Shown here in pieces: positions 41,530 through 59,495 of a DNA stretch of 64,000 bases; position 1 is the stretch's first letter; every line of letters begins with the position of its first letter. A program made the position numbers and the translations under genes. Origin of the DNA: Bacillota bacterium (lineage in GTDB: Bacteria; Bacillota; Ch66; Ch109); contig JABLWZ010000008.1 of assembly GCA_013178275.1 (NCBI GenBank), positions 1 through 64,000 on the forward strand, in the 5' to 3' direction. The notes beneath the pieces were generated by a model. The model ran no database searches. It saw only the letters and a list, made by a program, of their open reading frames with translations, and was not told the DNA's origin.

Positions 41530-41545
41530 AGCAATATTTATACCA
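41530..41545 (-). promoter_or_regulatory. Sigma-54 promoter candidate for the MaoC-first operon
   Basis: Minus strand: TGGTAT-AAATA-TTGCT, against the consensus TGGCAC-N5-TTGCW; the invariant GG and GC are present at correct spacing. It lies 40 bp before the MaoC start codon. Confidence 0.65.
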
Positions 41546-41705
41546 CCCTCTCACATCCAGTTCTGCCCCCGGTTTTTACACCTTCCGGCCCCGCACCCGA
41601 AGGGCCCTGCGCCCACGGAGCCAGATTAAAGGCGCTGGGAAGTCCGGCACGGCCTTCCTTCCAGTCAAACCCGTCCGCCCCTGATTGCACGCGTTTTTCC
41701 CCGTC

Positions 41706-41720
41706 GTACATTTCTTGCAC
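41706..41720 (-). promoter_or_regulatory. Enhancer-like motif GTGCA-N5-TGTAC
   Basis: Minus strand GTGCA-AGAAA-TGTAC, an imperfect inverted repeat 160 bp upstream of the sigma-54 promoter candidate. A TGCAC half site on the plus strand lies exactly 30 bp away (41686-41690). The same 15-bp motif recurs before three other -24/-12 elements. Confidence 0.5.
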
Positions 41721-42084
41721 ATCACTGCTTGCACGTTATAAAAAGGTATGCCGCAGACACCCCTATCAGGTTTTTTTCACAAAACCAACCCCGACATCCA
41801 CCAGCTATCCCAAACCGGCCGTCCGCCTTACCCTCCCCCCATCCATGTTCATTTTTTGCACCAGGACTGCACAAAACAACAAACGGGAGGAAGTGCAGGC
41901 CTTCCCCCCGCTTCAAAGTATAGACAAATACCCTTCTAAAATATTGACACATGTGCACCAGTATTCAATCAGCCTCAAATAGTGGACATACTCTGTGGGG
42001 GCATGAGCCCCTTATGGCGCGGAGCGTCTTTCTGCCCTGTGAAGGTCGACCGGCAAAAAGGAGCGAGCGACAGGAGGTCGCGAG

Positions 42085-42116
42085 AAAGCAAAGTGCAAGG
42101 ATGCACGTTTTGCTTT
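42085..42116. terminator. Hairpin with T-run after the BKACE-MFS unit
   Basis: AAAGCAAAGTGCA pairs with TGCACGTTTTGCTTT (one bulged G); the plus strand continues TTT, the minus strand CTCG after CTTT. It may end the minus-strand BKACE-MFS transcript, whose last stop is 200 bp away, or read-through from the other strand. Confidence 0.45.
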
Positions 42117-42317
42117 TTTCCAACCCCTTTTTGCATGTCGGCCTGAACAGTTGGCAGAACAGCGACGGGAATACCGGGCGACAGGACACTACAGAGTATG
42201 GCCCGGCCCTGATGAGATTGAATGCGGCCTTTAGGTGTGGTGTAGTTTTTTGTCGACAGGCTGCAGCGGGAGGAAGTGCAAGCCTTCACCCCGCTTGTTA
42301 ATCATTTTATAAACCGG

Positions 42318-43589
42318 TTATTTATTTACCCCCGCCCTCCCGGAAAAAGTCTCCGGTAAAAAAGCGAACAGGACGACAACCGAAAGTACACCCGCCATCC
42401 CGGCTGACAGCATCAGAAATCCCTGGCCGTAAGCGTCGGCCAGCAGCCCCGCCAGGTAGGTGCCCCCCGCCCCTCCCAACTGCCCAAACAGCGAAGCAGT
42501 GGAAAGGACCGTGGCTACTATTGCCGGAGAAACCCGCTCGCTGACCTCCGAGCACCAGGCGTAAAAGGCCCCGGTGGTTGAGAACCAGAATACCCCCATC
42601 AGACCCAGCACCGGCGTCAGTATTTTAAGCGGAAACAGCGGCAGCAGCAGGACAATCACCGACGCCCAGACCGAGACCAGGCAGGTAAACCATTTGCGGC
42701 TGCGCAGGCGGTCGGACAGCCACCCGCCGGGTATCGACACCGCCAGGCCTACCCAGAGCCAGCTCGTGGAAACAGCTACCGCGCTCCCCAGCTCCATCCC
42801 GTGATAGGTTACCAGGAAGGTCGGCAGGAAGTGGAGGACCACGTAAAACTCGCCCACGATCAGGGCCCAGGCCAGGTAGATCGCCCACAGCCGGTAATCG
42901 GTAAAAGCGGTTTTATAAGTAGCCCACCCAAAAGAAGCGCCTGCTCCCGTTTCCTCCGCCGGCGGCGCGGTCTCCAGCGGCCTCCCCGCCGCCCTCGCCT
43001 CTTCCTCCCGCACCGCCTCCCGGTCAGAGGGCTTCGCATCCCTTACCAGGGTCCAGATTAATACCAGGGCCAGCACCGAGGGCAGGGCAGCATAGGTAAA
43101 GATATAAGACCAGTGATGGTCCGCCAGGATGGCTCTGCCCCAGAAAAGGGCCAGCAGCGGCCCCAGGGTGGTGGCAAAACCGAGAAAGCTGAAGGCCAAC
43201 CCCCGCAGGTGCATCGGTATCCAGTCCCGGACCAGGGCCATGGAAGGCCCCAGGTTCCAGGCGGCCGCCAGCCCGAAAACCAGGCGGACCGCGATAAACG
43301 ACACGAAGCTGTGCGCCGATCCCAATAAAAGATTCAGCACCGCGATGGAGCCCGAGCCCATGATCAGCAGTACCCGCCGCCCGTAGCGGTCCGCCAGGTA
43401 CCCCGCCGGGAGCTGGCCAAACGCGTAGGTAAAGAGCATCACCGTGGCGATGATGCCGGCCTGGGCCATCGACAGGTTCCAATCCTCGATGATCAACGGG
43501 AGCGCAGGAGAGGTCAGGTTGCGGTCGAAGAACGGTAGCCAGTACGAGATAAAAATCGCCGAGAAGATTATCCAGCGCCTTTTGCCCAT
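42318..43589 (-). CDS. MFS transporter (organic anion/carboxylate type), copy 1
   Basis: 423 residues, twelve membrane segments with a longer charged loop after the sixth (about 195-225). YADRYGRR-type motif between segments 2 and 3 (GYLADRYGRRVLL). N-terminus FISYWLPFFDRNLTSPALP is nearly the same in layout as the 54.8-kb transporter, so both come from one family of proton-driven carboxylate carriers. GGGGTGAGG precedes the ATG. It follows the BKACE gene by 50 bp and should be co-transcribed from the -24/-12 candidate at 44.65 kb; its substrate is probably the acid handled by the island. Confidence 0.87.
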   Translation of the reverse strand: MGKRRWIIFSAIFISYWLPFFDRNLTSPALPLIIEDWNLSMAQAGIIATVMLFTYAFGQLPAGYLADRYGRRVLLIMGSGSIAVLNLLLGSAHSFVSFIAVRLVFGLAAAWNLGPSMALVRDWIPMHLRGLAFSFLGFATTLGPLLALFWGRAILADHHWSYIFTYAALPSVLALVLIWTLVRDAKPSDREAVREEEARAAGRPLETAPPAEETGAGASFGWATYKTAFTDYRLWAIYLAWALIVGEFYVVLHFLPTFLVTYHGMELGSAVAVSTSWLWVGLAVSIPGGWLSDRLRSRKWFTCLVSVWASVIVLLLPLFPLKILTPVLGLMGVFWFSTTGAFYAWCSEVSERVSPAIVATVLSTASLFGQLGGAGGTYLAGLLADAYGQGFLMLSAGMAGVLSVVVLFAFLPETFSGRAGVNK

Positions 43590-43639
43590 CTACCTCACCC
43601 CATAGTCCCGGCCAGTAATCCGGGATATTCCCGCATCAT

Positions 43640-44518
43640 CTACCGCCGGGGGAGCTTCAGCAGCTCCCTCGCCTCCTCCGGGGTAGCGGGCTCGCGTCCC
43701 ACGGTCTGACCCATCTTCACCGCCCGGGCCACCTGCTCGTAGCTCCCCTTGGCCAGGACCCCGTCCGAGATCCAGATGTTGTCCTCCAGGCCCACCCGGA
43801 CGTTCCCTCCCAGGGCCAGGGACATCAGGTTGCACAGCGGCTGCAGCCTGGGTCCCACACCGGTCGCCGTCCAGATGGCCCCATCGGGGGTGTTGTCCAG
43901 GTACTGGTTCAGGTTGCCCAAACTGAAGGGGATGCCGCCCGCAATCCCGTTCAGGTAATTGAAGTACAGGGGCTCCTCGAAGATGCCCTGTTTGCTGATC
44001 ATCATGATGTTCTCGATATGGCCGATATCGTACACCTCAATCTCGGGCTTGACCTTCAGCTCCTTCATAGTGCGGGCGAACTCGGCCACCATGGTAAAGG
44101 TGTTCTCAAACAGCACCTCGGCCAGGATCGTCCCGGTCCTGCGGTCGATGCCCGCGAAGTTCATGCTGCTCGAGTTGAGAGAAGCCAGGTCGGGACGTAT
44201 CTCTTTTATCGGTTTGATCCGGACCTCGGCGTTAGGCCCGGCCGAACTGGTATAGTTTATCAAAACCGGGCACCGGTTGCGGACAGCGTCAACCACCCGG
44301 CGGATATAGTCGACATCGAAGGTCGGCATGCCGGTCTCGGGGTCCCGGGCGTGCAGGTGAACCACCGCCGCCCCCTCCTGGTAGCAGCGGTAAGCCTCCT
44401 CGGCGACCTCCTCGGGGCTGTGCGGCACATTAGGGTTCTGATTCCTGAAGGTGGAGGACCCGGCTAACGCTGCGGTGATTACGAACTTCTTTTGAATCCG
44501 GTTGATATCGATCTTCAT
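43640..44518 (-). CDS. BKACE family enzyme (beta-keto acid cleavage, DUF849)
   Basis: 292 residues, a TIM barrel of the 3-keto-5-aminohexanoate cleavage (Kce) family. Zn ligands are seen in VVHLHARDPETG (two His) and in GLEDN near residue 245; the FVITAALAGSST start is typical. Such enzymes cleave a beta-keto acid with acetyl-CoA to acetoacetate plus a new CoA ester. Here it could release acetoacetate from a keto-acid intermediate. GAGGAGGG lies about 8 nt before the ATG. First gene of a two-gene unit with the MFS transporter. Confidence 0.9.
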   Translation of the reverse strand: MKIDINRIQKKFVITAALAGSSTFRNQNPNVPHSPEEVAEEAYRCYQEGAAVVHLHARDPETGMPTFDVDYIRRVVDAVRNRCPVLINYTSSAGPNAEVRIKPIKEIRPDLASLNSSSMNFAGIDRRTGTILAEVLFENTFTMVAEFARTMKELKVKPEIEVYDIGHIENIMMISKQGIFEEPLYFNYLNGIAGGIPFSLGNLNQYLDNTPDGAIWTATGVGPRLQPLCNLMSLALGGNVRVGLEDNIWISDGVLAKGSYEQVARAVKMGQTVGREPATPEEARELLKLPRR

Positions 44519-44645
44519 TGGCGAACTCCCTCCTCATAGTGCTATTCCGGCTTTAGCAACTCCTGACCATAATAAAATCCATTGTTTCATCGCTCCTGAA
44601 AAATTTCGCCCCCACCACTCACCGCTTCACCAAATAAATTCAGGA

Positions 44646-44661
44646 TGCAATTATCATGCCT
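44646..44661 (-). promoter_or_regulatory. Sigma-54 promoter candidate for the BKACE-MFS unit
   Basis: Minus strand: AGGCAT-GATAA-TTGCA. GG and GC are at the right spacing, GGCA matches the -24 box. About 128 bp before the BKACE start codon and directly behind the terminator of the regulator operon. Confidence 0.6.
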
Positions 44662-44684
44662 ACAACCCCATAAAGAAATAAAGA

Positions 44685-44706
44685 GCCGCCCCACTCCCGG
44701 GACGGC
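44685..44706 (-). terminator. Terminator of the kinase-regulator operon
   Basis: Minus strand GCCGTCCC pairs with GGGGCGGC (one G-U) around GGGAGT, followed by TCTTTATTTCTTT. It lies 173 nt after the regulator stop codon; a second hairpin at 44764-44795 precedes it. Confidence 0.75.
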
Positions 44707-44878: not shown

Positions 44879-46300
44879 TCACCGCACGTCCAGCATCTCG
44901 TACTTCTTCAGCTTGTACTGCAGGGTGCGGCGGCTTATCCCCAGCATCTTGGCGGTCTTCTCCCGGTGCCCGCCGGTCTGGCGCAGAGCCTCCTCCAGCA
45001 TGGTCCTCTCCACATCGACTATCACGTTCGAGAGGCACCGCTCCTCCTCCTGGAAAGCTATGTACCGGTTCCTAAAGGTCTGCTGGACCGGCAGGCTCTC
45101 GGAAAACATGTGGGAAGGCAGTTCATCAGTGGAAATGATATCCCCGCTGCCCAGGACCATCGCCCTCTCGATGATGTTCTCCAGTTCCCGCACGTTCCCC
45201 GGCCAGGGGTACTGGGTCAGGACCTTCGTGGCATTGGACGTGAGCCCCTTGACGTTCAAGCTGAACTTGTGGTTAAACTTGGCTATGAAGTGCCTGATCA
45301 GGTCGGGGATATCCTCGGACCTCTCCCGCAGCGACGGCACATGGATGCCCACCACGTACAGGCGGTAGTACAGGTCTCTCCTGAACCGGCCCGCCTCGAT
45401 CGCCTCATTCAGGTCCTCGTTAGTCGCGGCGATGACCCGGACATCGGACACGATGGTCTTCTTCCCCCCCAGCCGCTCGAATGCCTTGTCCTGCAGCACC
45501 CTCAGGAGCTTGGCCTGGGTCTGAAAACTCAGGGTCCCGATCTCGTCGAGGAAGACCGTCCCCTTGTCGGCCAGCTCAAACTTCCCCATCTTGGTCGCAA
45601 CCGCCCCGGTGAAGGCCCCCTTCTCGTGTCCGAACAGCTCGCTCTCCAGCAGGGTCTCCGGCAACACCGCGCAGTTTATCGTGATGAAAGGAAAATCCCG
45701 GCGGTCGCTCATGTTGTGCAGTTCCCGGGCGATCAGGCTCTTGCCGGTCCCGCTTTCACCCGTCAGAAGGACCGTGGTGTGGCGGTTGGCGACCTTATTC
45801 GCTACGTCGAAGACCTCCTGCATCACAACACTCTTCCCGACGATGCGGTTGCCGATGGACCCAAACCGGTTGGTCTCCACAGCGCCCCGGGCCGCCTTCA
45901 GCTCCGACCGGGGTTTGGTCTTCCTCACGGCGCTGCCCTTGATAGCCTCTCCGATGACCTTTAAAAGGTCGTCGTTCTCGAAAGGCTTTATCACATAATC
46001 GAAGGCCCCGAGCTTCATGGCCTCCACAGCGTTCTGCACCGAGGCGTAACCGCTCATGACCACCACCGGCGAGTCGGGGCAGAGGAGCCGTATCTCCCTG
46101 ATCGCCCCCAAGCCGTCCCGGCCTGACGCCCGAAGGTCCAGGAAGATAACGTCCCAGTCCCGCTTCTTTATCTCGGATACAGCGCCAGCCACGCTGCCGG
46201 CCTGGCCCAATTCGAAACCCTCGGACTTAAGAAACTCCAGGAGGAACTCCAGCGTAGAGGCGTCGTGGTCAATCAAGAGTATACTGTTCTGAGCAACCAT
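44879..46300 (-). CDS. NtrC-family sigma-54-dependent response regulator
   Basis: 473 residues. Receiver (1-120) with acidic pocket Asp11/Asp13, phospho-Asp55 in FLDLRASG, and KPFENDD; AAA+ domain (about 155-385) with Walker A GESGTGKS, the sigma-54 contact loop GAFTGA, DEIGTL, and arginine finger region RFRRDLYYRL; Fis-type HTH at the C-terminus (RQTGGHREKTAKMLGISRRTLQYKL). All elements for activation of sigma-54 RNA polymerase are intact. It overlaps the kinase-like gene's end by spacing of only 5 bp. It most likely drives the -24/-12 promoters found through this island (inference). Confidence 0.95.
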   Translation of the reverse strand: MVAQNSILLIDHDASTLEFLLEFLKSEGFELGQAGSVAGAVSEIKKRDWDVIFLDLRASGRDGLGAIREIRLLCPDSPVVVMSGYASVQNAVEAMKLGAFDYVIKPFENDDLLKVIGEAIKGSAVRKTKPRSELKAARGAVETNRFGSIGNRIVGKSVVMQEVFDVANKVANRHTTVLLTGESGTGKSLIARELHNMSDRRDFPFITINCAVLPETLLESELFGHEKGAFTGAVATKMGKFELADKGTVFLDEIGTLSFQTQAKLLRVLQDKAFERLGGKKTIVSDVRVIAATNEDLNEAIEAGRFRRDLYYRLYVVGIHVPSLRERSEDIPDLIRHFIAKFNHKFSLNVKGLTSNATKVLTQYPWPGNVRELENIIERAMVLGSGDIISTDELPSHMFSESLPVQQTFRNRYIAFQEEERCLSNVIVDVERTMLEEALRQTGGHREKTAKMLGISRRTLQYKLKKYEMLDVR

Positions 46301-46305
46301 CCAGC

Positions 46306-47799
46306 TTACCCCCTTGCCAAGGGAAAATCAAGCATCACGGTTGTTCCTTCGTTCTCCTTGCTGCGTACAACAATCCACCCACCATGCCTGATCACGATCT
46401 GCCGGGCCACCGCCAGTCCAGTTCCGGCACCGTCGACCTTGGTGGTGAAAAAAGGATCGAAAATCTTGTCCAGCAGGCTCTTCGAAATACCGCACCCGTT
46501 ATCTTTGACAACCACCCTCACCCGGTCGCCGGTCACCTGGCTGGTCACGTCAATAACCCCGGAGTGGCCCATTGCCTCGATAGAGTTGTTGAATATATTC
46601 GAAAACAGCTGGGAAAGCTTTTCGCGGTTCCCCTCTATGATCGGCTCGCTTTCATCGAGGTGAAGGTTTAAGAAAACCTTGGACTCATTGTTTAAGATCG
46701 TGGTGCAGGTGTTTTTGATGACCTCGCTCAGGCTCAGCCGGTCAAACTCCATCTCCATCGGCCGGGAGAGGTCCAGCAGGTTGTTGACCACCTGGTTGAT
46801 CTTGTCCACCTCGTCCACGATGATCTGGGCGAACTTCCTGCTGTTAGCGTCACTGGCCTCCCGCTTCTCGATCATCCGGGCAAAGCCGCGGATAGCGGCC
46901 AACGGCCCCTGGACGTCCTGTGACAGGTTGGTCGCGATCTTATTGATGACCGTCATCTTCTCCAGCTGTATCAGACGGTTCTGGAAGCTGTGCTTCCCGG
47001 TCTCATCCTGAACCAGGCCGACGACGCCAAGCAGCTCTCCCTTTTCGTCCAACCAGGGGAAGACCGTGGAGGAAAGCACCATCTCTTCCTGGTTCAGGGT
47101 GATGAACCTTATATGCCCGCCCGAGTAGGCCAGCTTCTTCTCCATCACATAGTCAATCACCCGTTTTACGTTGTCGCGCTGCTGAGGAGCCAGGCACTCT
47201 AGATAGTGGCGCCCGATGATGTTATTGGAGTCGTAGCGGAAAAGCGTCTCCGCCGCCCGGTTGAACTGGATCATGGTCCCGTCCTTGGAAACGGTATAGA
47301 TGCCGATGTCCAGGCTGTCCAGGACCTCGTTGGCGATACCCGCCGTGTTCAACAAACCGATCAGGCTCCCATAGTGCCTGGAAACCAGCTCGGCGACCGC
47401 CTTCAGGAGTTTCATCTCCCCCTCGATCGGCACCCGCTGACCCTTGAACAGCAGCAGAATGAACCCGCGGATGTTGGCGTGGCTCAGCGGGGCCAACATG
47501 CCGGACGACCCCGGATCAGCCCCGAGCAGGTCAAGCAGTCTCTTATCGAGCGCCTGGGGTCCGGTCTCCGCGGCATCCACCAGTTGATTCAAGGTCGATT
47601 GGGAAAAAGCAGCTATATCCTTCGAGTACTTGGAGGGCTTGACCGGGTGTTCGATGATAGGGTTCAGCTCGCTGTCGCAGGCCGCGATAAACCCGCTGTC
47701 AAAGGGAAAAAGCTCCTCCAGCAGGTTCCCCACATCACACTTCAGGAAGTCCCCTATTCCATGCCGCTTGGTTATATCCTGCCATATAGGGACTTTCAT
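46306..47799 (-). CDS. PAS-domain NtrB-like kinase protein lacking the phosphoacceptor His
   Basis: 497 residues, no membrane segment. An N-terminal GAF-like half (about 1-165), a PAS domain (about 170-280, NEVLDSLDIGIYTVSKDG onward), a dimerisation helix pair and a C-terminal HATPase with NIFNNSIEAMG (N-box), DNGCGIS, and TTKVDGAGTGLAVAR. In the H-box the sequence is NLSQDVQGPLAAIRG; the usual L-x-H-E-I-x-N-P-L would place His where Gln294 (codon CAG) stands. So ATP binding looks intact but autophosphorylation is doubtful. GGGGGGAGG precedes the ATG. Co-transcribed with the NtrC-type regulator. Confidence 0.88.
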   Translation of the reverse strand: MKVPIWQDITKRHGIGDFLKCDVGNLLEELFPFDSGFIAACDSELNPIIEHPVKPSKYSKDIAAFSQSTLNQLVDAAETGPQALDKRLLDLLGADPGSSGMLAPLSHANIRGFILLLFKGQRVPIEGEMKLLKAVAELVSRHYGSLIGLLNTAGIANEVLDSLDIGIYTVSKDGTMIQFNRAAETLFRYDSNNIIGRHYLECLAPQQRDNVKRVIDYVMEKKLAYSGGHIRFITLNQEEMVLSSTVFPWLDEKGELLGVVGLVQDETGKHSFQNRLIQLEKMTVINKIATNLSQDVQGPLAAIRGFARMIEKREASDANSRKFAQIIVDEVDKINQVVNNLLDLSRPMEMEFDRLSLSEVIKNTCTTILNNESKVFLNLHLDESEPIIEGNREKLSQLFSNIFNNSIEAMGHSGVIDVTSQVTGDRVRVVVKDNGCGISKSLLDKIFDPFFTTKVDGAGTGLAVARQIVIRHGGWIVVRSKENEGTTVMLDFPLARG

Positions 47800-47883
47800 A
47801 CCCTCCCCCCCTAACTATACTTTAACAAAGTCGACCGATATTACAACCCAATTCAATCAGGAATAATCTGCTCGACTGCCGGG

Positions 47884-48465
47884 TCATCCGGTCGGGCCGG
47901 AATCCCCCTCGCCATCAGCCCGACCTTTTACGGCGCCGGACCCTTTTCCAGCTTGGCCTATTCCCCGCATATCATGCCAGAGTTCCGCGTATGACGCCGC
48001 CAGGATATCCTTCAGCGCCGCCGCCATCTCATCGGTCACCGGCTTCACGACCTGGCCGGGGCTGCCCGCCACCAGCGACTGGGCCGGGACCTCCATCCGC
48101 TCCGGGACCAGCGACCCGGCGGCGATGATGCTCCCCGGCCCGATCTTTGCCCCGTCCAGGACTATCGCCCCCATGCCCACCAGGACCCCGTCCCCGATCT
48201 CACACCCGTGAAGCACCGCCCCGTGTCCGATGGTCACGTGATCGCCGATAGACACCGGATCCTCCGGGGTCTCGTGCACCACGCAGTTGTCCTGAATGTT
48301 GCTGTTGGCCCCTATCCTCACCCAGCTGTAGTCCGAGCGGACCACCGCGTTGAACCAGATACTCGAGTTGGCCCCCACCGTAACATCGCCGATGACCTTG
48401 GCCCCCGGGGCCACCCAGGCGCTGGGGTCTATCACCGGCCGCTTTCCCTTGTAACGTATCAGCAA
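47884..48465 (-). CDS. Gamma carbonic anhydrase-like hexapeptide-repeat protein
   Basis: 193 residues from TTG 48465 (AAAGGTG 6 nt upstream; a GTG three codons earlier has no site). Left-handed beta-helix hexapeptide repeats (VIGDVTVGANSSIWFNAVVR; IGDHVTIGHGAVLHG) and the metal-binding His set in NCVVHE, TIGHGAVLHG. The PaaY/YrdA subgroup is often found with CoA catabolism, where PaaY acts as thioesterase; either activity is possible. The C-terminal 25 residues are Gly-rich and variable. Last gene of the five-gene unit 51.8-47.9 kb. Confidence 0.85.
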   Translation of the reverse strand: MLIRYKGKRPVIDPSAWVAPGAKVIGDVTVGANSSIWFNAVVRSDYSWVRIGANSNIQDNCVVHETPEDPVSIGDHVTIGHGAVLHGCEIGDGVLVGMGAIVLDGAKIGPGSIIAAGSLVPERMEVPAQSLVAGSPGQVVKPVTDEMAAALKDILAASYAELWHDMRGIGQAGKGSGAVKGRADGEGDSGPTG

Positions 48466-48505
48466 TAAAATCACCTTTAACTCTTCAGGGCTTTAAACCG
48501 CCTTG

Positions 48506-48979
48506 CTACTCCACGACCGGCGCGAAGTGGTCGATGTCCCGGATGGTGTTGGTGGTCTTCTCCGCGAATACCGCCTTGACCCGCATCCCGGTCCTGACCT
48601 GCTCCGGCTCGATTCCCTCCACGATGTGGGCGATCGGCGTGTCCGCTCCGTCCACCTTGATCAGGGCCAGGATATACGGCGCCTTGCGGGGCAGGTGCTT
48701 GTCGTTGTAGTTCACCACCGTGTAGTTGGTGATGACTCCCTCGTTCCCAAGCTCCACCCAGTTCTCGTCCAGCTTTTCGAAGTCCTTCTCGCAGTATTCC
48801 CGGGGAGGCAGGTAGACCTTGTCGCACTTCGGGCACCTCACCCCGAGGATCTTCCCCTCGTCACGCAGGGAGATGATAAACCTCGATCCCACTCGGCCCG
48901 CGAAGTACTGGTTGGCCATGGTCATCTTACCGAACATCACGAAACTGTTTTTGTCTATTTCATTCCGGCACGTGCTCAT
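48506..48979 (-). CDS. DUF35 OB-fold protein with incomplete zinc ribbon
   Basis: 157 residues. N-terminal helix, rubredoxin-like ribbon with GVRCPKCDKVYLPPREYCEKDF, then the OB-fold (TNYTVVNYNDKHLPRKAPYILALI, THIVEGIEP-like end). The ribbon has three Cys; the place of the fourth is Asp. DUF35 proteins such as ChsH2 bind thiolase-like partners (Ltp2, ChsH1) and shape their acyl-CoA site. It sits directly downstream of a second DUF35 gene and two thiolase-like genes, so a multi-subunit complex is likely. GAGGAGGGG before the ATG. Confidence 0.85.
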   Translation of the reverse strand: MSTCRNEIDKNSFVMFGKMTMANQYFAGRVGSRFIISLRDEGKILGVRCPKCDKVYLPPREYCEKDFEKLDENWVELGNEGVITNYTVVNYNDKHLPRKAPYILALIKVDGADTPIAHIVEGIEPEQVRTGMRVKAVFAEKTTNTIRDIDHFAPVVE

Positions 48980-48991
48980 CGAAACCCCTCC

Positions 48992-49483
48992 TCAATCATC
49001 TATAACCTTAAAATGTAGCAGGTCAGCCACACTGCCGGTCCTGACCTCATTCCATACCGCTCTCACCCTTACCCCGCGCTTCAGTTTGTCATTATCCTCG
49101 TTTCTGACCGTAAAGGCAAAGGCATCGTCGGCCGAAGCGTTGTCCAGCTTAAAGATACACATGTTGTAAGGGGTGGGGCGAAGGTACCCGGTCAAGGGGT
49201 CCGGACTTGAAAAATAGAAAATATCGGCTTCGCATATGATTCCCTCCGGACCGACTTCAACCACCTCCTCAGTACGGATCGCGCACCGAGGACAGCTTTC
49301 GCTGGGCGGGGTCTGGGTGCGTCCGCATTGGGGGCATTTACTGGCATACAGCTTTTTATCTTTGAAGCCTTCAAACCACTTGCCCATCATAGGACCGCTG
49401 CTGTAACGAACATCGATGGAATTCATTACTGAAAGCGAGATCAACTCTTTGACCTGATTATTATCGGGTTTGTTTTCAGCCAT
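48992..49483 (-). CDS. DUF35 OB-fold protein with complete zinc ribbon
   Basis: 163 residues. Ribbon with four Cys in ASKCPQCGRTQTPPSESCPRC (about residues 53-73), followed by the OB-fold domain ending RVRAVWNEVRTGSVADLLHF. Likely partner of the adjacent thiolase-like protein (stop and start 4 nt apart). The N-terminus SVMNSIDVRYSSGPMMGKWFEG is the helical part that in ChsH2-type proteins contacts the partner. AGGAGG lies 7 nt before the ATG. Confidence 0.87.
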   Translation of the reverse strand: MAENKPDNNQVKELISLSVMNSIDVRYSSGPMMGKWFEGFKDKKLYASKCPQCGRTQTPPSESCPRCAIRTEEVVEVGPEGIICEADIFYFSSPDPLTGYLRPTPYNMCIFKLDNASADDAFAFTVRNEDNDKLKRGVRVRAVWNEVRTGSVADLLHFKVIDD

Positions 49484-49486
49484 CCC

Positions 49487-50686: not shown

Positions 50687-50698
50687 TGTCACACCCCC

Positions 50699-51835: not shown

Positions 51836-51958
51836 CGATACTCATACCTCCTCAGCTTTTATCATGACTTCACCGAGACATCGCCCACCTTCCACCAACC
51901 TGCTGCTTTAAATGCTGCTGTAACTGCTGGGGTAAAATTCACCTCCGGTATCCATCTG

Positions 51959-51989
51959 TTGAGGGAACAGTAAAAAACCGCTCCCTCAA
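51959..51989 (-). terminator. Hairpin after the thiolase gene
   Basis: TTGAGGGA (51959-51966) pairs with TCCCTCAA (51982-51989) 11 nt after the thiolase stop; the run of T is inside the loop, not after the stem, so termination is uncertain. Confidence 0.45.
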
Positions 51990-51999
51990 TCCCTTTCCC

Positions 52000-53202
52000 T
52001 TATAGACGCTCGAAAATTGTAGCGATACCCTGGCCGCCGCCGATGCAGAGGGTCGCCATTCCATATTTTCCGCCAGTCCGGTGCAGTTCATTGACTACCG
52101 CCATGGCAAGCCGGCCGCCGGACATGCCGTTGGGGTGGCCGAAAGCGATGGCGCCGCCGTGAGGATTCCAGCGCTCGGGTATAACCTTGTGGCCATTTCG
52201 CTCCAAGAGCTTCATGCAGGCCAGGGTCTGCGAAGCAAAGGCCTCATTACACTCCACCACGGTCATATCTTCCAGGCTGAGTCCCGCCTGTTTCAAAGCC
52301 TTCTCGCAGGCGATGACCGGGGCGATCCCCATGTACTTGGGTTCACGGGCGCCCAGAGCGCAGGTGACAAAACGGGCCTTGGGCTTAACGCCCAGTTCTT
52401 CCGCCTTCTTTGCCGACATTAATGCCACTGCCACCCCGCCGTCGTTCATTCCCGAAGAGCTGCCGGCGGTCACGGTGCCGTCTTTTTTGAAGGCCGGACG
52501 AAGCTGCGCCAGTTTTTCCATGCTCATTTCACGGGGATGCTCGTCGGTATCAAAATATACCGGCGCCCCTTTCTTCTGCGGTATTTCCACCGGCACGATC
52601 TCATCCTTGAACAGTCCGTTTTTGATCGCCGCTGCAGCCAACTGCTGACTTCTAAAGCCAAAAGCGTCCTGTTCTTCCCTGGTAATTTCAAACTCCTCGG
52701 CCAGTATCTCCGCTATGATACCCATAGCCACATTGCTTTCTGCGTCGTGGCCGGTCTGCTTGGTAATCCATGCCGGAGGCATAAGGGAAAAAGGAGACTC
52801 CTGGCGCTCCATCAAATATGGCGCACGGGACCAGGATTCACATCCGCCGGCTACGTAAACATCACCAAAACCCGCTTTGATGTATGCGGCAGCCGTGTTA
52901 ATAGTTTGCAGCGCCGAGCCGCACTGCCGTTCCACCGTCTGGGCGGGTACGGAAATAGGATATCCCGCTTTCAGCACCGCCCAGCGGCCGATGTTCACTG
53001 CAGCGTTGTTGGTGCAGGCGTGCCCGATTATCACATCATCGATCAATGCCGGATCGAAATTCATTCGTTCCTTGAGTCCTTTCAAGGCAAAGGCAGCGAG
53101 TTCTTCCGGGCGGAAAGCCGATAGAGAGCCTCCCATTTTTCCTATGGCGGTTCTTACTCCGTCGATATACAGCACGTCCATGTTTGCCATAACCTCATTC
53201 AT
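52000..53202 (-). CDS. Acetyl-CoA acyltransferase (true thiolase)
   Basis: 400 residues. Nucleophile Cys94 in VERQCGSALQTINTAA, His in IAFGHPNGMSGGR and the second Cys in TLCIGGGQGIA, all as in active thiolases; the N-terminus LYIDGVRTAIGKMGG is typical. Cleaves 3-ketoacyl-CoA with CoA to acetyl-CoA, completing beta-oxidation, or runs in the reverse direction. AGGAGG lies 8 nt before the ATG at 53202. Single-gene unit with its own strong -24/-12 promoter 48 bp upstream and an enhancer-like motif further up. Confidence 0.95.
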   Translation of the reverse strand: MNEVMANMDVLYIDGVRTAIGKMGGSLSAFRPEELAAFALKGLKERMNFDPALIDDVIIGHACTNNAAVNIGRWAVLKAGYPISVPAQTVERQCGSALQTINTAAAYIKAGFGDVYVAGGCESWSRAPYLMERQESPFSLMPPAWITKQTGHDAESNVAMGIIAEILAEEFEITREEQDAFGFRSQQLAAAAIKNGLFKDEIVPVEIPQKKGAPVYFDTDEHPREMSMEKLAQLRPAFKKDGTVTAGSSSGMNDGGVAVALMSAKKAEELGVKPKARFVTCALGAREPKYMGIAPVIACEKALKQAGLSLEDMTVVECNEAFASQTLACMKLLERNGHKVIPERWNPHGGAIAFGHPNGMSGGRLAMAVVNELHRTGGKYGMATLCIGGGQGIATIFERL

Positions 53203-53249: not shown

Positions 53250-53265
53250 AGCAAATCACGTGCCA
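53250..53265 (-). promoter_or_regulatory. Sigma-54 promoter of the thiolase gene
   Basis: Minus strand: TGGCAC-GTGAT-TTGCT, a full match to the consensus TGGCAC-N5-TTGCW, 48 bp before the start codon. Confidence 0.87.
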
Positions 53266-53332
53266 CATTAAAAAAGGTTCACCCCCGGCAACCTCATCGA
53301 ATGAAGAAAGCCAGCAAACATAGTGCCCCAAG

Positions 53333-53379
53333 GCACAAGTGCAGCTCGCCTCCGAGCTGCACTTGTGCAAACATGGTAC
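53333..53379. promoter_or_regulatory. 16-bp perfect hairpin overlapping an enhancer-like motif
   Basis: 53333-53348 and 53353-53368 are exact complements (GCACAAGTGCAGCTCG) around CCTC, a very stable stem without T-run on either strand. Its right arm runs into GTGCA-AACAT-GGTAC (53365-53379), the shared motif, 100 bp upstream of the thiolase -24/-12 element. The stem may be the 3' end of the CrtC-like transcript, an insulator, or part of the activator site. Confidence 0.55.
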
Positions 53380-53443: not shown

Positions 53444-54541
53444 TTACTTCTGCTGCTGGGCCGCCAGCTTCTGCCTCAGTCTCACCGCCGCGGCCAGGTC
53501 CATGTACTCGAACATGGTCCTTCCTTCCCGCTTGAGCCGGCCGATAGAGGTCTCGACGTCCATGCGGTAGTCGCCGGCGAACCGCAGGTAGCACAGCTGC
53601 TCCGCCACCAGGTTCAGGTTGCTGATCTTGACCTCTCCCTTGACCCCCGAACCCTCCAGGAACACCAGCCGGCCTTCCGACGCGTAGGTCAGCTCCTGCG
53701 CCCCGGTGATCATCTTCTCCTCGACAAATTCGATCTCCTCCGTGGAGGTTACGATGTCGTTCCCGTGCACGAATATGCACGGTTTGAAGGGCGGGTATTC
53801 GGATTCGGGGAACAGGTTGTAGACCTTGGAGTATATCAGGTTCATGTCCCCTTCCGCGATCCTTCCCCAGTACCACTTTTCGAGGGTCGCGGGGAGCGGG
53901 TGATTGCCCCAGTTGTGGTCGTGGTAGCTGTACCCCGACTCGTTGACCTCGATCACCTTCCCCTCGTTGTCGGTAACCTTGAAGGATGCCTTGACGTGTC
54001 CATTCGGGACCGCCACGATCCAGCGGTGAAAGAGGTGACCCTTCGGGGTGTCTCTCTCTATCAGCGACCCCCGCCCGATCTTCACCCCCGGGACCATGGG
54101 GGTTAGCACCACATCGGCTTTAGCCGTCTTCCCCTTGCCGTCGGGTATCTCCGCGCTGATGACAAACTCGGGCAGGCCCCCGGTCTCCCTCATGGTCAGG
54201 TGGTTCTTGTCCCCGAACCAGACGTCCAGCCGGTCCGGCGCTATCTTCACCTGGTCGGCGTTTAAGTCCAGTTCCCCGTAGAAGATGGGGACCCGTTTCT
54301 CGTCATACAGGCCCACCTTCATGGTGGCATAGTCCAGGGCGTTATAGGGTATGGTCGGGTCCGCCGCCAGTTTGGCTAGGGCCTGGGCGTATCTCAGCGC
54401 GGTCGGATTGGTGCAGCTGAACACCACATTAAAAGAATAGCCGTTGTGCAGGTCCCCGTCGAAGTACCACCACTCATAAGCCCCCGGCATCTTGTCCTTC
54501 TCCGGGTGATACAGGTTCAACGAGTAGTCAAAGCCTCCCAT
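53444..54541 (-). CDS. CrtC/AttH-like lipocalin-fold protein (copy C)
   Basis: 365 residues. AYEWWYFDGDLHNGYSF near residue 22 and SGYSYHDHNWGNHP...EKWYWGRIAEGD near 210 are the CrtC/AttH motif pair. It lacks a signal peptide and is the most diverged of the three copies. Single-gene unit with a consensus -24/-12 promoter 58 bp upstream, so it is under the same control as thiolase. GAGGGGGG lies 8 nt before the ATG. The C-terminus ends in a Gln-rich tail. Confidence 0.78.
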   Translation of the reverse strand: MGGFDYSLNLYHPEKDKMPGAYEWWYFDGDLHNGYSFNVVFSCTNPTALRYAQALAKLAADPTIPYNALDYATMKVGLYDEKRVPIFYGELDLNADQVKIAPDRLDVWFGDKNHLTMRETGGLPEFVISAEIPDGKGKTAKADVVLTPMVPGVKIGRGSLIERDTPKGHLFHRWIVAVPNGHVKASFKVTDNEGKVIEVNESGYSYHDHNWGNHPLPATLEKWYWGRIAEGDMNLIYSKVYNLFPESEYPPFKPCIFVHGNDIVTSTEEIEFVEEKMITGAQELTYASEGRLVFLEGSGVKGEVKISNLNLVAEQLCYLRFAGDYRMDVETSIGRLKREGRTMFEYMDLAAAVRLRQKLAAQQQK

Positions 54542-54598: not shown

Positions 54599-54615
54599 TG
54601 CAATTATTGTGCCAA
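54599..54615 (-). promoter_or_regulatory. Sigma-54 promoter of CrtC-like copy C
   Basis: Minus strand: TTGGCAC-AATAA-TTGCA, a full match to the consensus including the T before TGGCAC, 58 bp before the start codon. No copy of the 15-bp enhancer-like motif was found within 200 bp upstream. Confidence 0.88.
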
Positions 54616-54770
54616 CGAAATTAAGACCCTGCTGTCTAATAGAGTATGATCACGTAATAATTATACCGTTCACCCCGCTGCAGGAATTCTCGAAAAGATT
54701 CCATGAATCTTAAGTTAAATATACACCATGCTTGAAAGTTTTAAGGTTGAAGAGGTCTGGTATCAATAAA

Positions 54771-54838: not shown

Positions 54839-56101
54839 CTATGCCTTGGCTGATTTCTTTGCTGTTTCAGGAAGGAAGAGCAGTGATAGACAGAACAGAA
54901 TGCCTATTATTCCAGCCACCCAAAACATCGATCCCACTCCCAGTTTGTCCCCCAAGTAACCCGATATCTGAGCGCCGAATACTCCTCCCAGGTCCGCGAA
55001 TACGATGCTGATTCCTAAAAGCGTGGCCATCAGCGCGGGATTCGCTCTCCCACAAACATCGGCGCTCAAGGTGTAATAAGCCCCGCTGGTGCCGAACCAG
55101 AAAACCCCCATCACACAGAGCATCGGGAAAATCATGCTTACTGGTATGAATGGAATCGCCATGACTATAATATGGGCAGGTATAACCCCAAAGAACGTGA
55201 ACCATTTCCGGCTTTTGAAACGGTCGCTCAGCCACCCACCCAGTATTGAAACGACCAGACCGGTCCATAACCAGCCGGTAGTCATAAAGATAGCATCTGT
55301 AACCGGTACTCCACGAAGCTTGACCAACATCGTGGGGAGAAAGTGCAGAAGGATGGTGAACTCGCTCATTATAAAAAACCATGAGATATATAAGACCCAC
55401 AGTTCCTTATGGGCTATGGAAGTCTTTAAAATTGTGGTCCAGGGTACATGATGTGACTGCTCTATCTTTGGGGACACCCCATATTCTTTTTCGTCCTGCA
55501 GTTCTTCTTCATGGATTCGTTTTTTATCTTCTGCGTTGGGGTCCTTCGCGAATAACAGCGCCAAAACCACGATAACTACGGCGGGTACAATAGTATAGGC
55601 ATATACCGGCTGCCATCCCCCCCATTTGCCGATCGCGAATTGTCCCCACAGCAAAGCGGTCAGAGGACCGGCCGTTGACACAATAGCCAATACGCCCATG
55701 GCCAGCCCGCGCCGTTTTGCTGGAAACCAGTCGGTTACCATGGCCATAAGCGGGGCGTGGTTGGCGGCCGCACCGAGCCCCACGAATGCCCTTAAACCTA
55801 AGAAGGAAGAGAAACTGGTGGTCAAACTCATGAGAAAGTTGGCCACCCCGACTACCGCTGTCCCCAGAAGCATAAACTTGCTGCGCCCGAACTTGTCTGC
55901 CAGGATGCCAAACGGGATATGGCCCAGCGAGTAAGTAAAAAGCATGATGCTGGCGATCGCTCCGGCGCCGGCCATGGTCATTCCCCAGTCCTTGATTAAC
56001 AGGGGCAAGGTTGGGGTAGTTAGACTGCGGTTAAAAAAAGATATCCAGTAGGCCAGTACAATAACTAACAGAACTAATATCCTCTTGGTCTTAAAATTCA
56101 T
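54839..56101 (-). CDS. MFS transporter (carboxylate type), copy 2
   Basis: 420 residues, twelve membrane segments, with GILADKFGRSKFMLLG between segments 2 and 3 and a charged loop near 200-220. Layout and N-terminus (AYWISFFNRSLTTPTLP) parallel the 42.3-kb transporter. Ribosome site GGGGAGGAG lies 7 nt before the ATG. Single-gene unit; a -24/-12 element and two enhancer-like motifs lie upstream, so it should be induced together with the catabolic genes. Two related carriers suggest uptake of two related acids, or uptake and export. Confidence 0.88.
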   Translation of the reverse strand: MNFKTKRILVLLVIVLAYWISFFNRSLTTPTLPLLIKDWGMTMAGAGAIASIMLFTYSLGHIPFGILADKFGRSKFMLLGTAVVGVANFLMSLTTSFSSFLGLRAFVGLGAAANHAPLMAMVTDWFPAKRRGLAMGVLAIVSTAGPLTALLWGQFAIGKWGGWQPVYAYTIVPAVVIVVLALLFAKDPNAEDKKRIHEEELQDEKEYGVSPKIEQSHHVPWTTILKTSIAHKELWVLYISWFFIMSEFTILLHFLPTMLVKLRGVPVTDAIFMTTGWLWTGLVVSILGGWLSDRFKSRKWFTFFGVIPAHIIVMAIPFIPVSMIFPMLCVMGVFWFGTSGAYYTLSADVCGRANPALMATLLGISIVFADLGGVFGAQISGYLGDKLGVGSMFWVAGIIGILFCLSLLFLPETAKKSAKA

Positions 56102-56214: not shown

Positions 56215-56230
56215 TGCAACCTTCATGCCT
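56215..56230 (-). promoter_or_regulatory. Sigma-54 promoter candidate of the second MFS gene
   Basis: Minus strand: AGGCAT-GAAGG-TTGCA, nearly the same as the BKACE element (AGGCAT-GATAA-TTGCA). 114 bp before the start codon. Confidence 0.65.
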
Positions 56231-56328
56231 CTTTTCAAAATCTTTAAAAAACATCAACCCAACCGCTTTGAATAAGGGGAAAGGCCAAATATTCGAAGCG
56301 ATATTAGTGTATGTGTTGCACATAATAC

Positions 56329-56373
56329 GTGCATTACATGTACTCAGCGTCGAAAAAGGTGCATTTACGGTAC
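56329..56373. promoter_or_regulatory. Paired enhancer-like motifs, 30 bp apart
   Basis: GTGCA-TTACA-TGTAC (56329-56343) and GTGCA-TTTAC-GGTAC (56359-56373) on the plus strand, start to start 30 bp, about three helical turns, 100-145 bp upstream of the -24/-12 element. Typical placing for NtrC-type activator sites. Confidence 0.6.
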
Positions 56374-56397
56374 ATTTTTTCCTGGAGGAATATAAAA

Positions 56398-56426
56398 AAG
56401 GGCCGTGCTTGTAGAAGCTGGCCCTT
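56398..56426 (-). terminator. Terminator of the CaiB - FAD oxidoreductase unit
   Basis: AAGGGCC (56398-56404) pairs with GGCCCTT (56420-56426), with inner GCTT/AAGC; the minus strand continues TTTTATATT. About 100 nt after the FAD oxidoreductase stop. The rest of 56102-56523 holds only the promoter elements listed. Confidence 0.85.
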
Positions 56427-56523
56427 AATGTAGAGTTTAAGTTTTAAAAACTGACGCTCTATTACCTCGAAATAAATTTGACTGGTTGCTCAGCTGCTTA
56501 TCTGTATCAGTGTTTAAAGAACA

Positions 56524-58050
56524 CTACCTCACTCCGTAATCCTTACCCGTAATCTCCGAGGCGCAGATCAGCCCCGCCGCGCAGGCGCAGTCCATGGCCA
56601 CCCCGTAGCCCTTGACGGTGTCCCCGGTGAAGTACAGACCCTCCAGCCCCGGCGCCCGGACCGGCGACTTCATGGTCCCCGCCTGGTTCACGTCCTTGGC
56701 CACACCCTCCAGCCTCCAGCTGATCGGGAAGAGCGCCCAGTCGATACTGTCCTTGAAGCCCGGGTAACGCCGCTCCAGGTACTCCACGATCTGGCTGCAG
56801 GCCCACTCCATCAGCTCCTTGTTTACCGCCTCCTCCTGGGTCACCGGGGCGTAGGCCGTGAAAAGGTGCTTGCCCGCCGGAGCGCAGAACGGGTCCGAGG
56901 TCGACTGGATGTTCCAGCACATGTAGACGTCGTGGGTGAGCCGGTTCCCCTTGGGGATGACCAGGGTGTCCTTCATACCCTTGTCCCATTCGAACTCAGG
57001 AAGAACCAGCCGGTTGAGGCCGAAGTACGGCGCGATCGACCCGAAGCCGCGCAGCTTCTCCGTCCGGTCCGCCCACTCCGCCGGGAATTTTTTCTTGTCA
57101 GCGACCTTGAAGGTGTCCTGGGTCGGGATGTTGCTCACCACCACTGGGGCCAGGACCTCCAGCTTCCCTTCCCCGCCCTTGATCACGGCCCCTTTTACCT
57201 TGCCGTTTTCGATCATTATCTCTTCCACCCGCGAGTTGAGGAGGATCGCTCCACCGTAGAACTTGAAACGCTTCGCTACCGCATCCGCCCACTGCATTAT
57301 CCCGCCGGCCACGAACCCCGACTGGTACTGGATGATCCCTTTCGCGAAGCGCGGATTGATGACTTCCATCTCGTAGCGGAAGATATCCCCCACCGAGATC
57401 TCCTCCGGGTCATTGATGGTCGTGATCAGGGTGGCCAGGGCATGAATTATCCCAAACAGGACCGGGTTCTTGTCAAATCCCCTATCGCGGCACCATTGGG
57501 CCACCGACACCTTCTCATACTTATCCAGGTCCTCCCTGGCCACCCTCGGCAGCCAGAACTCAAGAAACGCGCGCCGAGTATCCTTGTCGGGAAACATGGC
57601 CTCCACCTTGGGGTCAAACCTGCCCATATAGTCCTGGTATATCTGGTCGCCGATGTAGGTCGTGTTCAGGTTCCCGACGAACTTCACCCCGGCCTTCTCC
57701 CCGCTCCCGATCACCGAGTCCAGGTCATAAAAGTAGCCGCGGCCGTTCAGTGCCACCCCGTGGTATCCCACGTCTATCTGGTAGCCCGCCAGCAGTCGCC
57801 TGGCGATGATGTCCCTCATGCCGGGATCGGACCTCGCCAGCCAGGTGTACTGTTCCCCCAGCCGCCTGCGGTACCACTCTTCCCCGTTGTCCATTATCTC
57901 CTCGCCCCTGAAGGTCGCGGCGCGTCCTCCCACCCGGTCCGACTGCTCCACCAGCAGCACCTTCATCCCTTCATAGGCGAGCAGTGAAGCCACGGTGAGG
58001 CCGCCCACGCCGGCTCCTACAACGACAGCATCATAATTATTACTCGTCAT
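56524..58050 (-). CDS. CrtI/phytoene-desaturase-like FAD oxidoreductase
   Basis: 508 residues. N-terminal dinucleotide-binding AVVVGAGVGGLTVASLLAYEG, then VEQSDRVGGRAAT, and a C-terminal FAD motif GLYFTGDTVKGYGVAMDCACAAG, the layout of the CrtI/CrtN/CrtD and retinol-saturase-like branch. The middle holds a substrate domain with one or two hydrophobic helices. Such enzymes desaturate or saturate isoprenoid chains; no phytoene synthase is near, so carotenoid synthesis is not indicated. AAAGGGG before the ATG. Co-transcribed with the CaiB gene 44 bp upstream. Confidence 0.82.
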   Translation of the reverse strand: MTSNNYDAVVVGAGVGGLTVASLLAYEGMKVLLVEQSDRVGGRAATFRGEEIMDNGEEWYRRRLGEQYTWLARSDPGMRDIIARRLLAGYQIDVGYHGVALNGRGYFYDLDSVIGSGEKAGVKFVGNLNTTYIGDQIYQDYMGRFDPKVEAMFPDKDTRRAFLEFWLPRVAREDLDKYEKVSVAQWCRDRGFDKNPVLFGIIHALATLITTINDPEEISVGDIFRYEMEVINPRFAKGIIQYQSGFVAGGIMQWADAVAKRFKFYGGAILLNSRVEEIMIENGKVKGAVIKGGEGKLEVLAPVVVSNIPTQDTFKVADKKKFPAEWADRTEKLRGFGSIAPYFGLNRLVLPEFEWDKGMKDTLVIPKGNRLTHDVYMCWNIQSTSDPFCAPAGKHLFTAYAPVTQEEAVNKELMEWACSQIVEYLERRYPGFKDSIDWALFPISWRLEGVAKDVNQAGTMKSPVRAPGLEGLYFTGDTVKGYGVAMDCACAAGLICASEITGKDYGVR

Positions 58051-58093
58051 GGCGTCTGCCCCTTTCGGAATAGTCCACTGTTATCCAGCACGA

Positions 58094-59290
58094 TTACCGG
58101 ACCTTGATGACCCCGTCCCGGGCCAGCCTGCTGATGCGCTCCTCCGAGTACCCGATCTCAATCAGGATCTCTCGGGTGTTCTCCCCCAAGAGCGGAGCCG
58201 ACTTGTCAACCACGCAGGGGGTGCGGGAGAACTTGATCGGCTGTCCGATGGTCTTTACCTTCCCCGCAATCGGGTCATCAACCTCTATACACATCTTTCT
58301 CTCCTGAACGTGAGGCATGCCCAGTATCTCGTCGATGTTCATGATGGGAGCGACCGGCTGGCCCTTCGACTGCAGGAGCCCGATGATCTCCATTAAGTTG
58401 TGCTGGGATGTCCACTTGGTTATTTCATCGTTCAATTCATCGTAATTGGCGCAGCGGTTGGGATTGGTGTCGAAGCGAGGGTCGCCTGCCAGCCCCGGCC
58501 TCCCCATGATCTCGCACAGCTGACCCCACAGCTTGTCGTTAGCCGCCGGGATGATCACCCAACGGTCATCCTTGGTCCGGTAGGTGTCAAACGGCGCGAT
58601 GGTCGGGACCCGGTTGCCGGTGCGGCCCAGGATTCTCCCGTCCCAGGTGTAGGTGGGCTGGTCGTAGTAGCTGAGGAGGACGTCCTGCATCGAGATATCC
58701 ACATGCTGTCCCAGGCCCGTCCTCTGCTTGTACAGCAGCGCCGCCAGCAGGCCGGCGCAGCCGAAGGCCCCTGAGCTGGTATCCCCGATCAGCACCCCGA
58801 CCCGGGTCGGCGGTCCGCCGGGGTGTCCGGTCACGCTCATGATTCCCGACATGGCCTGACCCACGATATCATAGCCGGGCAGCTGCGACATCGGCCCGGT
58901 CTGGCCATAACCGGAGACCGAACACATGACCAGGCCGGGGTTTATCTTGCTCAGGGTCTCATAATCGATGTTCCAGCGCTTCATGGTGCCGGGGGTAAAG
59001 TTCTCCACCAGGGCGTCCGCAGTCTTGGCGAGCTCCTGGATTATCTCCTGCCCCTCCCTGGTGTTGAGGTCCACCGCCAGATCCCGCTTCCCGCGGTTCA
59101 CCGAGATGAAGCTGGCGGACACCCCATTCTTCTGCGGCACGAAGTGCCGGGTGTCGTCCCCGCGCACCGGGTGCTCCACCTTGATAACGTCCGCCCCCAT
59201 GTCCTGCAGAAGATATGTAACGGTCGGCCCCGCGATGGCTATGGTGATGTCGATTACCCTTATCCCTTGTAGCAGTTCAGATTTCGCCAC
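58094..59290 (-). CDS. CaiB/BaiF family CoA-transferase (copy 2)
   Basis: 398 residues, GTG start with GGGGTG 7 nt upstream. GIRVIDITIAIAGPTVTYLLQDMGADVIKVEHPVRGDD, NRGKRDLAVDLNTREGQE, GYGQTGPMSQLPGYD and VDISMQDVLLSYYD (catalytic Asp) show an intact family III CoA-transferase. It is close to the 37.9-kb copy in all these segments. With the FAD oxidoreductase it forms a two-gene unit, perhaps giving the CoA ester of a substrate that the oxidoreductase produces or uses. Confidence 0.93.
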   Translation of the reverse strand: MAKSELLQGIRVIDITIAIAGPTVTYLLQDMGADVIKVEHPVRGDDTRHFVPQKNGVSASFISVNRGKRDLAVDLNTREGQEIIQELAKTADALVENFTPGTMKRWNIDYETLSKINPGLVMCSVSGYGQTGPMSQLPGYDIVGQAMSGIMSVTGHPGGPPTRVGVLIGDTSSGAFGCAGLLAALLYKQRTGLGQHVDISMQDVLLSYYDQPTYTWDGRILGRTGNRVPTIAPFDTYRTKDDRWVIIPAANDKLWGQLCEIMGRPGLAGDPRFDTNPNRCANYDELNDEITKWTSQHNLMEIIGLLQSKGQPVAPIMNIDEILGMPHVQERKMCIEVDDPIAGKVKTIGQPIKFSRTPCVVDKSAPLLGENTREILIEIGYSEERISRLARDGVIKVR

Positions 59291-59479
59291 ATAAATGCAC
59301 CCCTTTTTATTTATACTGATGCTGCTGAATCAACCTGAAAACTCATCCACAATTCAACTCTACCAAAAACCCACTGAAGAATAACAGCCCTATAGACAAC
59401 CCCTCCCCTGTTTTTAAGTGATAGCGCGGAAATCTTTAAGCTAATTAACAAACGAACTGCATGATCAAGCTGATTCAAA

Positions 59480-59495
59480 TGCAAATTTCGCGCCT
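59480..59495 (-). promoter_or_regulatory. Sigma-54 promoter candidate of the CaiB - FAD oxidoreductase unit
   Basis: Minus strand: AGGCGC-GAAAT-TTGCA. GG and GC are in place, the -12 box is perfect, the -24 box has four of six. It is 190 bp before the start codon, longer than the others. Confidence 0.5.

Follow-up and report, generated by a model that had tools for sequence, protein, structure and literature searches.

Background

The closest described background for the locus reported here is a reconstruction of the regulons of 263 sigma-54 activators from Clostridiales (Nie et al. 2019, PMC6615313). According to the main text of that study, 65% of these activators have a single target operon and the remainder between two and six; the targets usually adjoin the activator, and acyl-CoA operons are among them. 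The present work concerns a locus of this known kind in a Bacillota bacterium (contig JABLWZ010000008.1 of assembly GCA_013178275.1), the first 64,000 nucleotides of which are referred to as the window. Between positions 41,530 and 59,495, six -24/-12 promoter elements stand on the minus strand in front of catabolic genes, with the NtrC-type activator EBP1 in their midst. With four to six operons in the window plus one outside, this local regulon is large next to those described in that text, and it is neatly resolved. Furthermore, no activator with CrtC-like, BKACE or ChsH2-type targets was found in the main-text passages of PMC6615313 consulted.

EBP1 resembles activators of the NtrC/ZraR type, which work with a PAS kinase (NtrB, ZraS): it combines a receiver, an AAA+ domain with GAFTGA and a Fis-type helix-turn-helix (HTH) domain, and its PAS-HisKA-HATPase partner HK1 is encoded in the same gene run. 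Unlike in these systems, the acceptor His of the kinase is replaced by Gln in HK1, and the second acidic residue of the receiver pocket by His in EBP1. In NifL-NifA, a PAS plus kinase-like protein is paired with a sigma-54 activator and controls it by contact, with no phosphotransfer. This pair is a candidate functional parallel for HK1-EBP1, by analogy, and differs in that NifA has a GAF domain where EBP1 has a receiver. A literature search for kinase-dead partners, and for BKACE with sigma-54, returned nothing specific. Taken together, the sequence evidence makes it fairly probable that the locus is a local sigma-54 regulon run by EBP1, with a paralogous EBP2/EBP3 sub-regulon upstream and an input other than phosphorylation by HK1.

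A dense local set of sigma-54 promoters

All six -24/-12 elements named in the original prediction are present on the minus strand, intergenic and each before a gene (Table 1), and GG-N10-GC is kept in every one. Two had been called full consensus matches; 53250 is indeed an exact TGGCACG-N4-TTGCW, but 54599 shows one difference, which leaves one full match plus one near-match.

Raw consensus counting over the whole window (3 mismatches) gave 59 matches against 83.6 expected from shuffles and was dropped as evidence; with no enrichment there, position was tested, the signal being carried by position and strand. Bit scores are relative, since the sigma-54 weight matrix was built on the generally known consensus. 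In the intergenic DNA of 31.0-59.7 kb (3.3 kb), six minus-strand and no plus-strand matches exceed 13 bits, compared with a mean of 0.10 and a maximum of 2 in 300 dinucleotide shuffles; the reversed matrix yields no match above 11 bits in the same DNA. A systematic genome sample of twenty 20-kb stretches (400 kb) contains five matches above 13 bits, not one of which is intergenic and also at most 250 bp before a gene, whereas the 29 kb stretch studied here contains eight, seven of which are intergenic and before a gene (the seventh being the operator at 53366, see below). The next 32 kb hold seven, five of them so placed. Gene calls in the sample came from a simple codon model, on which the total match counts do not depend. 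The genome density check that the original prediction had proposed, run on this sample, thus finds the sites concentrated locally and not at equal density elsewhere. By position and strand, the six elements read as a genuine, dense, local set of sigma-54 promoters.

Further -24/-12 elements lie past the window on the same contig, at 65017, 65700, 73473, 84674, 88042 and 90722 (minus) and at 89183 (plus), and rpoN is present in a single copy in the genome (C5:106544). Two apparent tandem promoters were not retained: 53366 (above 13 bits) is the operator at 53365..53379 misread as a sigma-54 site, and 53313, which has no T at the first consensus position and sits at a hairpin edge, is not claimed. 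A long perfect hairpin without a T run, GCACAAGTGCAGCTCG..CGAGCTGCACTTGTGC, occupies 53323-53370, between the operator and promoter 53250.

A common operator upstream of four of the six promoters

When the TGCA and GTAC tetramers preceding the individual promoters were listed, one fixed arrangement emerged, GTAC-N6-TGCAC. It is also the commonest dyad (5 of 13) when every 4-N(0-12)-5 combination is enumerated without bias across 13 promoters, a count that, taken alone, is reached by 1 of 60 shuffles. The six window promoters by themselves again give it as the top dyad (four of six; reached by 1 of 100 shuffles), so the outside copy at 65813 was not needed for its discovery. When any further copy within the 220 kb of contig read is also disallowed, none of 300 shuffles attains the observed count of five (maximum 4), which places the operators, like the promoters, above chance. 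The perfect palindrome TGCAC-N7-GTGCA, considered as an operator, occurs at one place only on the contig and was dropped for GTAC-N6-TGCAC.

All six exact copies on the contig (41706, 53365, 56329, 56359, 59596 and 65813) are intergenic and upstream of sigma-54 sites, 100-175 bp from 41530, 53250, 56215 (twice), 59480 and, outside the window, 65700. The whole genome contains 24 exact copies. For the remaining 18, no such position upstream of a sigma-54 site was seen: 16 lie within open reading frames (ORFs), one in a terminator after a gene (locus L041) and one between two genes (L042), where no sigma-54 element was recognised. Copies are paired 29-31 bp apart at 56215, 59480 and 65700, the second copy having one mismatch in the latter two. 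This spacing corresponds to about three helical turns, as would be expected of activator dimers on one DNA face.

The activator EBP1 and its partner kinase HK1

EBP1 had been described as an intact NtrC-type activator. Its ATPase domain (AAA+ with GAFTGA) and its Fis-type HTH bear this out, but the receiver lacks one acidic-pocket residue and the partner kinase its acceptor His. Specifically, HK1 aligns with ZraS and with HK2, the kinase next to the sister activator EBP2, across the HisKA and ATPase domains, and at the position of the phospho-accepting His that marks PAS sensor histidine kinases it has Gln294 (codon CAG). Kinases near related activators elsewhere keep this His with one exception, on Desulfobulbaceae contig DDXK01000056.1 (L030), which likewise has Gln (MSQELKNPL). 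In the EBP1 receiver the acidic pair is IDHD, whereas related activators with a read N-terminus have VDDE-like sequence, acidic at that position; the phosphorylation pocket of EBP1 is incomplete even though acceptor Asp and Lys are kept.

Canonical two-component control, in which HK1 still phosphorylates EBP1, could draw on the adjacency of the two genes (5 bp apart), the intact ATP-binding motifs of HK1 and the retained Asp and Lys of the receiver. It is nevertheless improbable, given the Gln in place of the acceptor His, the changed H-box around it (QDVQGPL vs HEVRSPL in HK2) and the non-acidic residue in IDHD; these alterations on both sides make ordinary HK1-EBP1 phosphotransfer unlikely. 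For the same reasons, EBP1 would probably receive its input by protein contact, as in NifL-NifA, or by cross-talk, through phosphorylation by the sister kinase HK2. A wider proposal is offered tentatively, at somewhat less than even weight: EBP1-HK1 would have given up phosphotransfer on both sides and would control a sigma-54 catabolic regulon by contact or through a borrowed HK2, EBP3 beside it would be a sensor-activator fusion, and the three duplicated regulators would represent three wiring styles plus a diverged operator code.

Sister activators and a probable second sub-regulon

The cluster runs past the window to about 91 kb of the contig and includes two sister activators, EBP2 and EBP3. 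EBP2 is the nearest relative of EBP1 found (55% identity in one comparison, 52% in another). Across 399 genomes of the phylum, no EBP1 relative above about 51% was found outside this genome; a separate contig scan returned relatives of 40-44% only, and neither operator pattern was found at the loci of distant EBP1-related activators. Catabolic genes are paralogous as well: the acyl-CoA dehydrogenases (ACAD) at 39085/62920 (66%) and 36692/61738 (57%), the enoyl-CoA hydratases (ECH) at 40249/64121 (57%), HBD at 33626/78042 (59%) and CaiB at 37876/58094 (54%). The MaoC, ChsH2-type and thiolase-domain genes also have paralogous copies.

Promoters in the vicinity of EBP3 bear a different palindrome, TTAGTAC-N7-GTACTAA, which has exactly two copies in 4.77 Mb, at 84740 and 88198, where it precedes the sigma-54 sites 84674 and 88042. 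The shorter GTAC-N7-GTAC is found in two further places, ahead of EBP3 (76048) and ahead of 73473, from which the gene run that ends in HK2-EBP2 would be transcribed. If the window operator is rewritten as GTAC-N7-GCAC, the two operators have a common spacing and one common half. The recognition helix is SRRVLQYKLKKYG in EBP2 and EBP3 and SRRTLQYKLKKYE in EBP1, so that one residue separates EBP1 from its sisters (RRVLQYK against RRTLQYK); of the 34 other activator C-termini of the genome that were read, those of the two sisters are the only ones with SRRxLQYKLKKY. Furthermore, the operator-bearing promoter 53250 heads the gene run that ends in EBP1. From operon position and helix residues we infer, as the natural assignment, that EBP1 acts on GTAC-N6-TGCAC and EBP2/EBP3 on GTAC-N7-GTAC. 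The island would then comprise at least two adjacent sub-regulons.

These data favour a model in which EBP1 binds GTAC-N6-TGCAC sites that lie 100-175 bp upstream of -24/-12 promoters, either singly or in pairs with a spacing of about 30 bp, and its AAA+/GAFTGA module opens RNA polymerase-sigma-54 at the thiolase operon, the MaoC operon, MFS 2, the CaiB-FAD operon and the 65700 gene. As the thiolase operon encodes EBP1 itself, this would amount to a positive-feedback switch, whose output would be uptake, CoA activation and beta-oxidation of some hydrophobic acid. The input to EBP1 would come from contact or the sister kinase instead of HK1 phosphorylation, and the paralogous sub-regulon (EBP2, EBP3, GTAC-N7-GTAC) would lie directly upstream, at about 66-91 kb.

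Weighing the evidence

Several observations weigh against this model. Promoter 44646 has no exact operator, the nearest sequence (GTAAACATGGTGCAG, about 70 bp upstream) having two mismatches and a background-like matrix score, and 54599 has no upstream operator, its best matrix score being the promoter itself. Both are thereby no more than candidate members of the regulon, although they are probably sigma-54-dependent, because both match the consensus well. The operator also resembles a degenerate -24/-12 element (GTAC-N6-TGCA vs GCAC-N6-TGCA). In addition, no orthologous locus for footprinting was found among the genomes scanned, and with only distant EBP1 relatives phylogenetic footprinting is impossible. 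Finally, EBP1, EBP2 or both could bind GTAC-N6-TGCAC, the pairing being based on operon position and helix residues.

The two operator-free promoters, together with the 42 full-length activator domains encoded in the genome, would suit an arrangement in which each unit is sigma-54-dependent but answers to a different distant activator, with no local regulon; the operator common to four of six promoters plus one outside, and the strong local concentration of sites, make this very unlikely. The resemblance to the promoter consensus raises the idea that GTAC-N6-TGCAC is a degenerate or decoy sigma-54 element and no activator operator, as it is one base away from GCAC-N6-TGCA and its 53365 copy scores as a promoter. 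This is unlikely, since the invariant -24 GG is missing in five of six copies, the 41706 copy is oriented oppositely, the true promoter is 110-175 bp away from each copy, and a 29-31 bp spacing of copies recurs in three promoters.

It is possible, if less easily reconciled with the operators, that EBP1, EBP2 and EBP3 control the promoters jointly with overlapping specificity, making 41-91 kb one network without sub-regulons. EBP1 and EBP2 are each other's closest relatives found, both operators have a GTAC half and N7 spacing, the 65813 operator physically adjoins EBP2, and HK1 may need the sister kinase. However, exact copies of the two operator classes never mix at any promoter tested: intergenic GTAC-N7-GTAC occurs only at 73.5, 76.0, 84.7 and 88.2 kb, and GTAC-N6-TGCAC only at the others.

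An EBP1 regulon beside a sister sub-regulon, the reading preferred here, narrows the original claim of one coordinated pathway. An operator common to four of the six promoters and a local activator speak for coordination, but the operator is not at every promoter; with at least two operator classes and three related activators (one in the window, two just outside), the proposed single pathway shrinks to, at most, one of two sister sub-regulons lying side by side.

Gene content of the units

The six units encode CoA enzymes of lipid breakdown (two CaiB-type CoA-transferases, three acyl-CoA dehydrogenases, hydratases and a hydroxyacyl-CoA dehydrogenase), a thiolase, two thiolase-domain and two ChsH2-type proteins, BKACE, three CrtC-like proteins, a phytoene-desaturase-like FAD enzyme and two MFS transporters. 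The lipid-breakdown units with the common operator are probably switched on together, and the eight genes of the 44879..53202 run, with gaps of 3-164 bp, are probably co-transcribed from promoter 53250. Gene content makes it plausible that they serve a common substrate or a single pathway. The catabolic proteins do not reach NCBIfam equivalog cut-offs, and no substrate is therefore assigned; a guess would be a hydrophobic acid, perhaps isoprenoid or alicyclic, that is taken up, activated with CoA and broken down by beta-oxidation. Local alignments of CrtC-like protein C with the two CrtC-like proteins at 34.5-36.7 kb show 32-35% identity, and its matches in 60 related genomes are weak throughout.

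Upstream of 54599, at roughly 54690-54720, lies AAGATTC-ATG-GAATCTT, a perfect palindrome to which a different regulator might bind. A group II intron with a reverse transcriptase (59829-61166) occupies about 59700-61637 on the minus strand; its end, judged by domain V position, lies roughly 50-100 bp upstream of the 59480 operators, and it separates CaiB-FAD from ACAD-ACAD-ECH genes that resemble the 41530 operon. Elsewhere in the window, a c-di-GMP-I riboswitch (26846-26929, minus strand) precedes a 1527-aa ORF (22095-26678), and repeat-like stretches, GCGACCTCCTGTCGCTCGC and GGGCTCATGCCCC, look alike by eye in two distant intergenic regions (about 42000-42300, and about 4000-4250 of L041).

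Table 1 Promoter elements, operators, regulators and transcription units of the locus (contig coordinates)
Feature	Position	Strand	Sequence	Details
-24/-12 element	41530..41546	-	TGGTATAAATATTGCT	13.0 bits; 31 bp before start codon; promoter of MaoC-first operon (41499 down to 32391)
-24/-12 element	44646..44662	-	AGGCATGATAATTGCA	128 bp before start codon; heads BKACE-MFS
-24/-12 element	53250..53266	-	TGGCACGTGATTTGCT	exact consensus; 48 bp before thiolase
-24/-12 element	54599..54615	-	TGGCACAATAATTGCA	58 bp before start codon of CrtC-like gene 53444-54541
-24/-12 element	56215..56231	-	AGGCATGAAGGTTGCA	114 bp before start codon; heads MFS 2 (54839-56101)
-24/-12 element	59480..59496	-	AGGCGCGAAATTTGCA	190 bp before start codon; heads CaiB-FAD oxidoreductase operon
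Operator	41706..41720	+	GTACATTTCTTGCAC	reverse orientation; ~160-175 bp upstream of 41530; one-mismatch copy at 41847
Operator	53365..53379	-	GTACCATGTTTGCAC	~113 bp upstream of 53250; also scores as false sigma-54 match at 53366
Operator	56329..56343	-	GTACATGTAATGCAC	112 bp upstream of 56215
Operator	56359..56373	-	GTACCGTAAATGCAC	142 bp upstream of 56215; 30 bp from neighbouring operator
Operator	59596..59610	-	GTACCAAAGTTGCAC	114 bp upstream of 59480
Second operator, one mismatch	59627..59641	-	ATACCATGATTGCAC	31 bp from first operator of 59480
Operator outside window	65813			111 bp before 65700
Activator EBP1	44879..46300	-		receiver (acidic pair IDHD), sigma-54 AAA+ with GAFTGA, Fis-type HTH SRRTLQYKLKKYEM
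Sensor kinase HK1	46306..47799	-		PAS, HisKA with Gln294 replacing phospho-accepting His, HATPase motifs present
EBP2	66459-67823			with kinase HK2 67801-69351
EBP3	73667-75853			PAS/HisKA-like sensor (His present, no ATPase domain, no receiver) fused directly to sigma-54 AAA+ and HTH
Nine-gene operon	32391..41499	-		MaoC, enoyl-CoA hydratase, ACAD, CaiB, ACAD, two CrtC-like proteins, 3-hydroxyacyl-CoA dehydrogenase, ACAD
BKACE and MFS transporter	42318..44518	-		BKACE 43640-44518; MFS 42318-43589
Probable eight-gene operon from promoter 53250	44879..53202	-		thiolase, two thiolase-domain proteins, two ChsH2-type (DUF35), gamma-carbonic-anhydrase-like protein, HK1, EBP1
CrtC-like protein C	53444..54541	-		no Pfam match
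MFS transporter 2	54839..56101	-		41% identical to MFS 42318-43589
CaiB-FAD unit	56524..59290	-		CaiB-type CoA-transferase 58094-59290; phytoene-desaturase-like FAD oxidoreductase 56524-58050

Implications

Through the analysis, about 23 acyl-CoA, transporter and CrtC-like genes that looked scattered become a set whose co-regulation can be tested, with an operator that is defined. It furthermore suggests that two paralogous catabolic sub-regulons may have diverged through one operator half plus a recognition-helix residue. Lastly, the apparent loss of phosphotransfer in EBP1-HK1 makes the way in which activators of this sort are switched directly testable.

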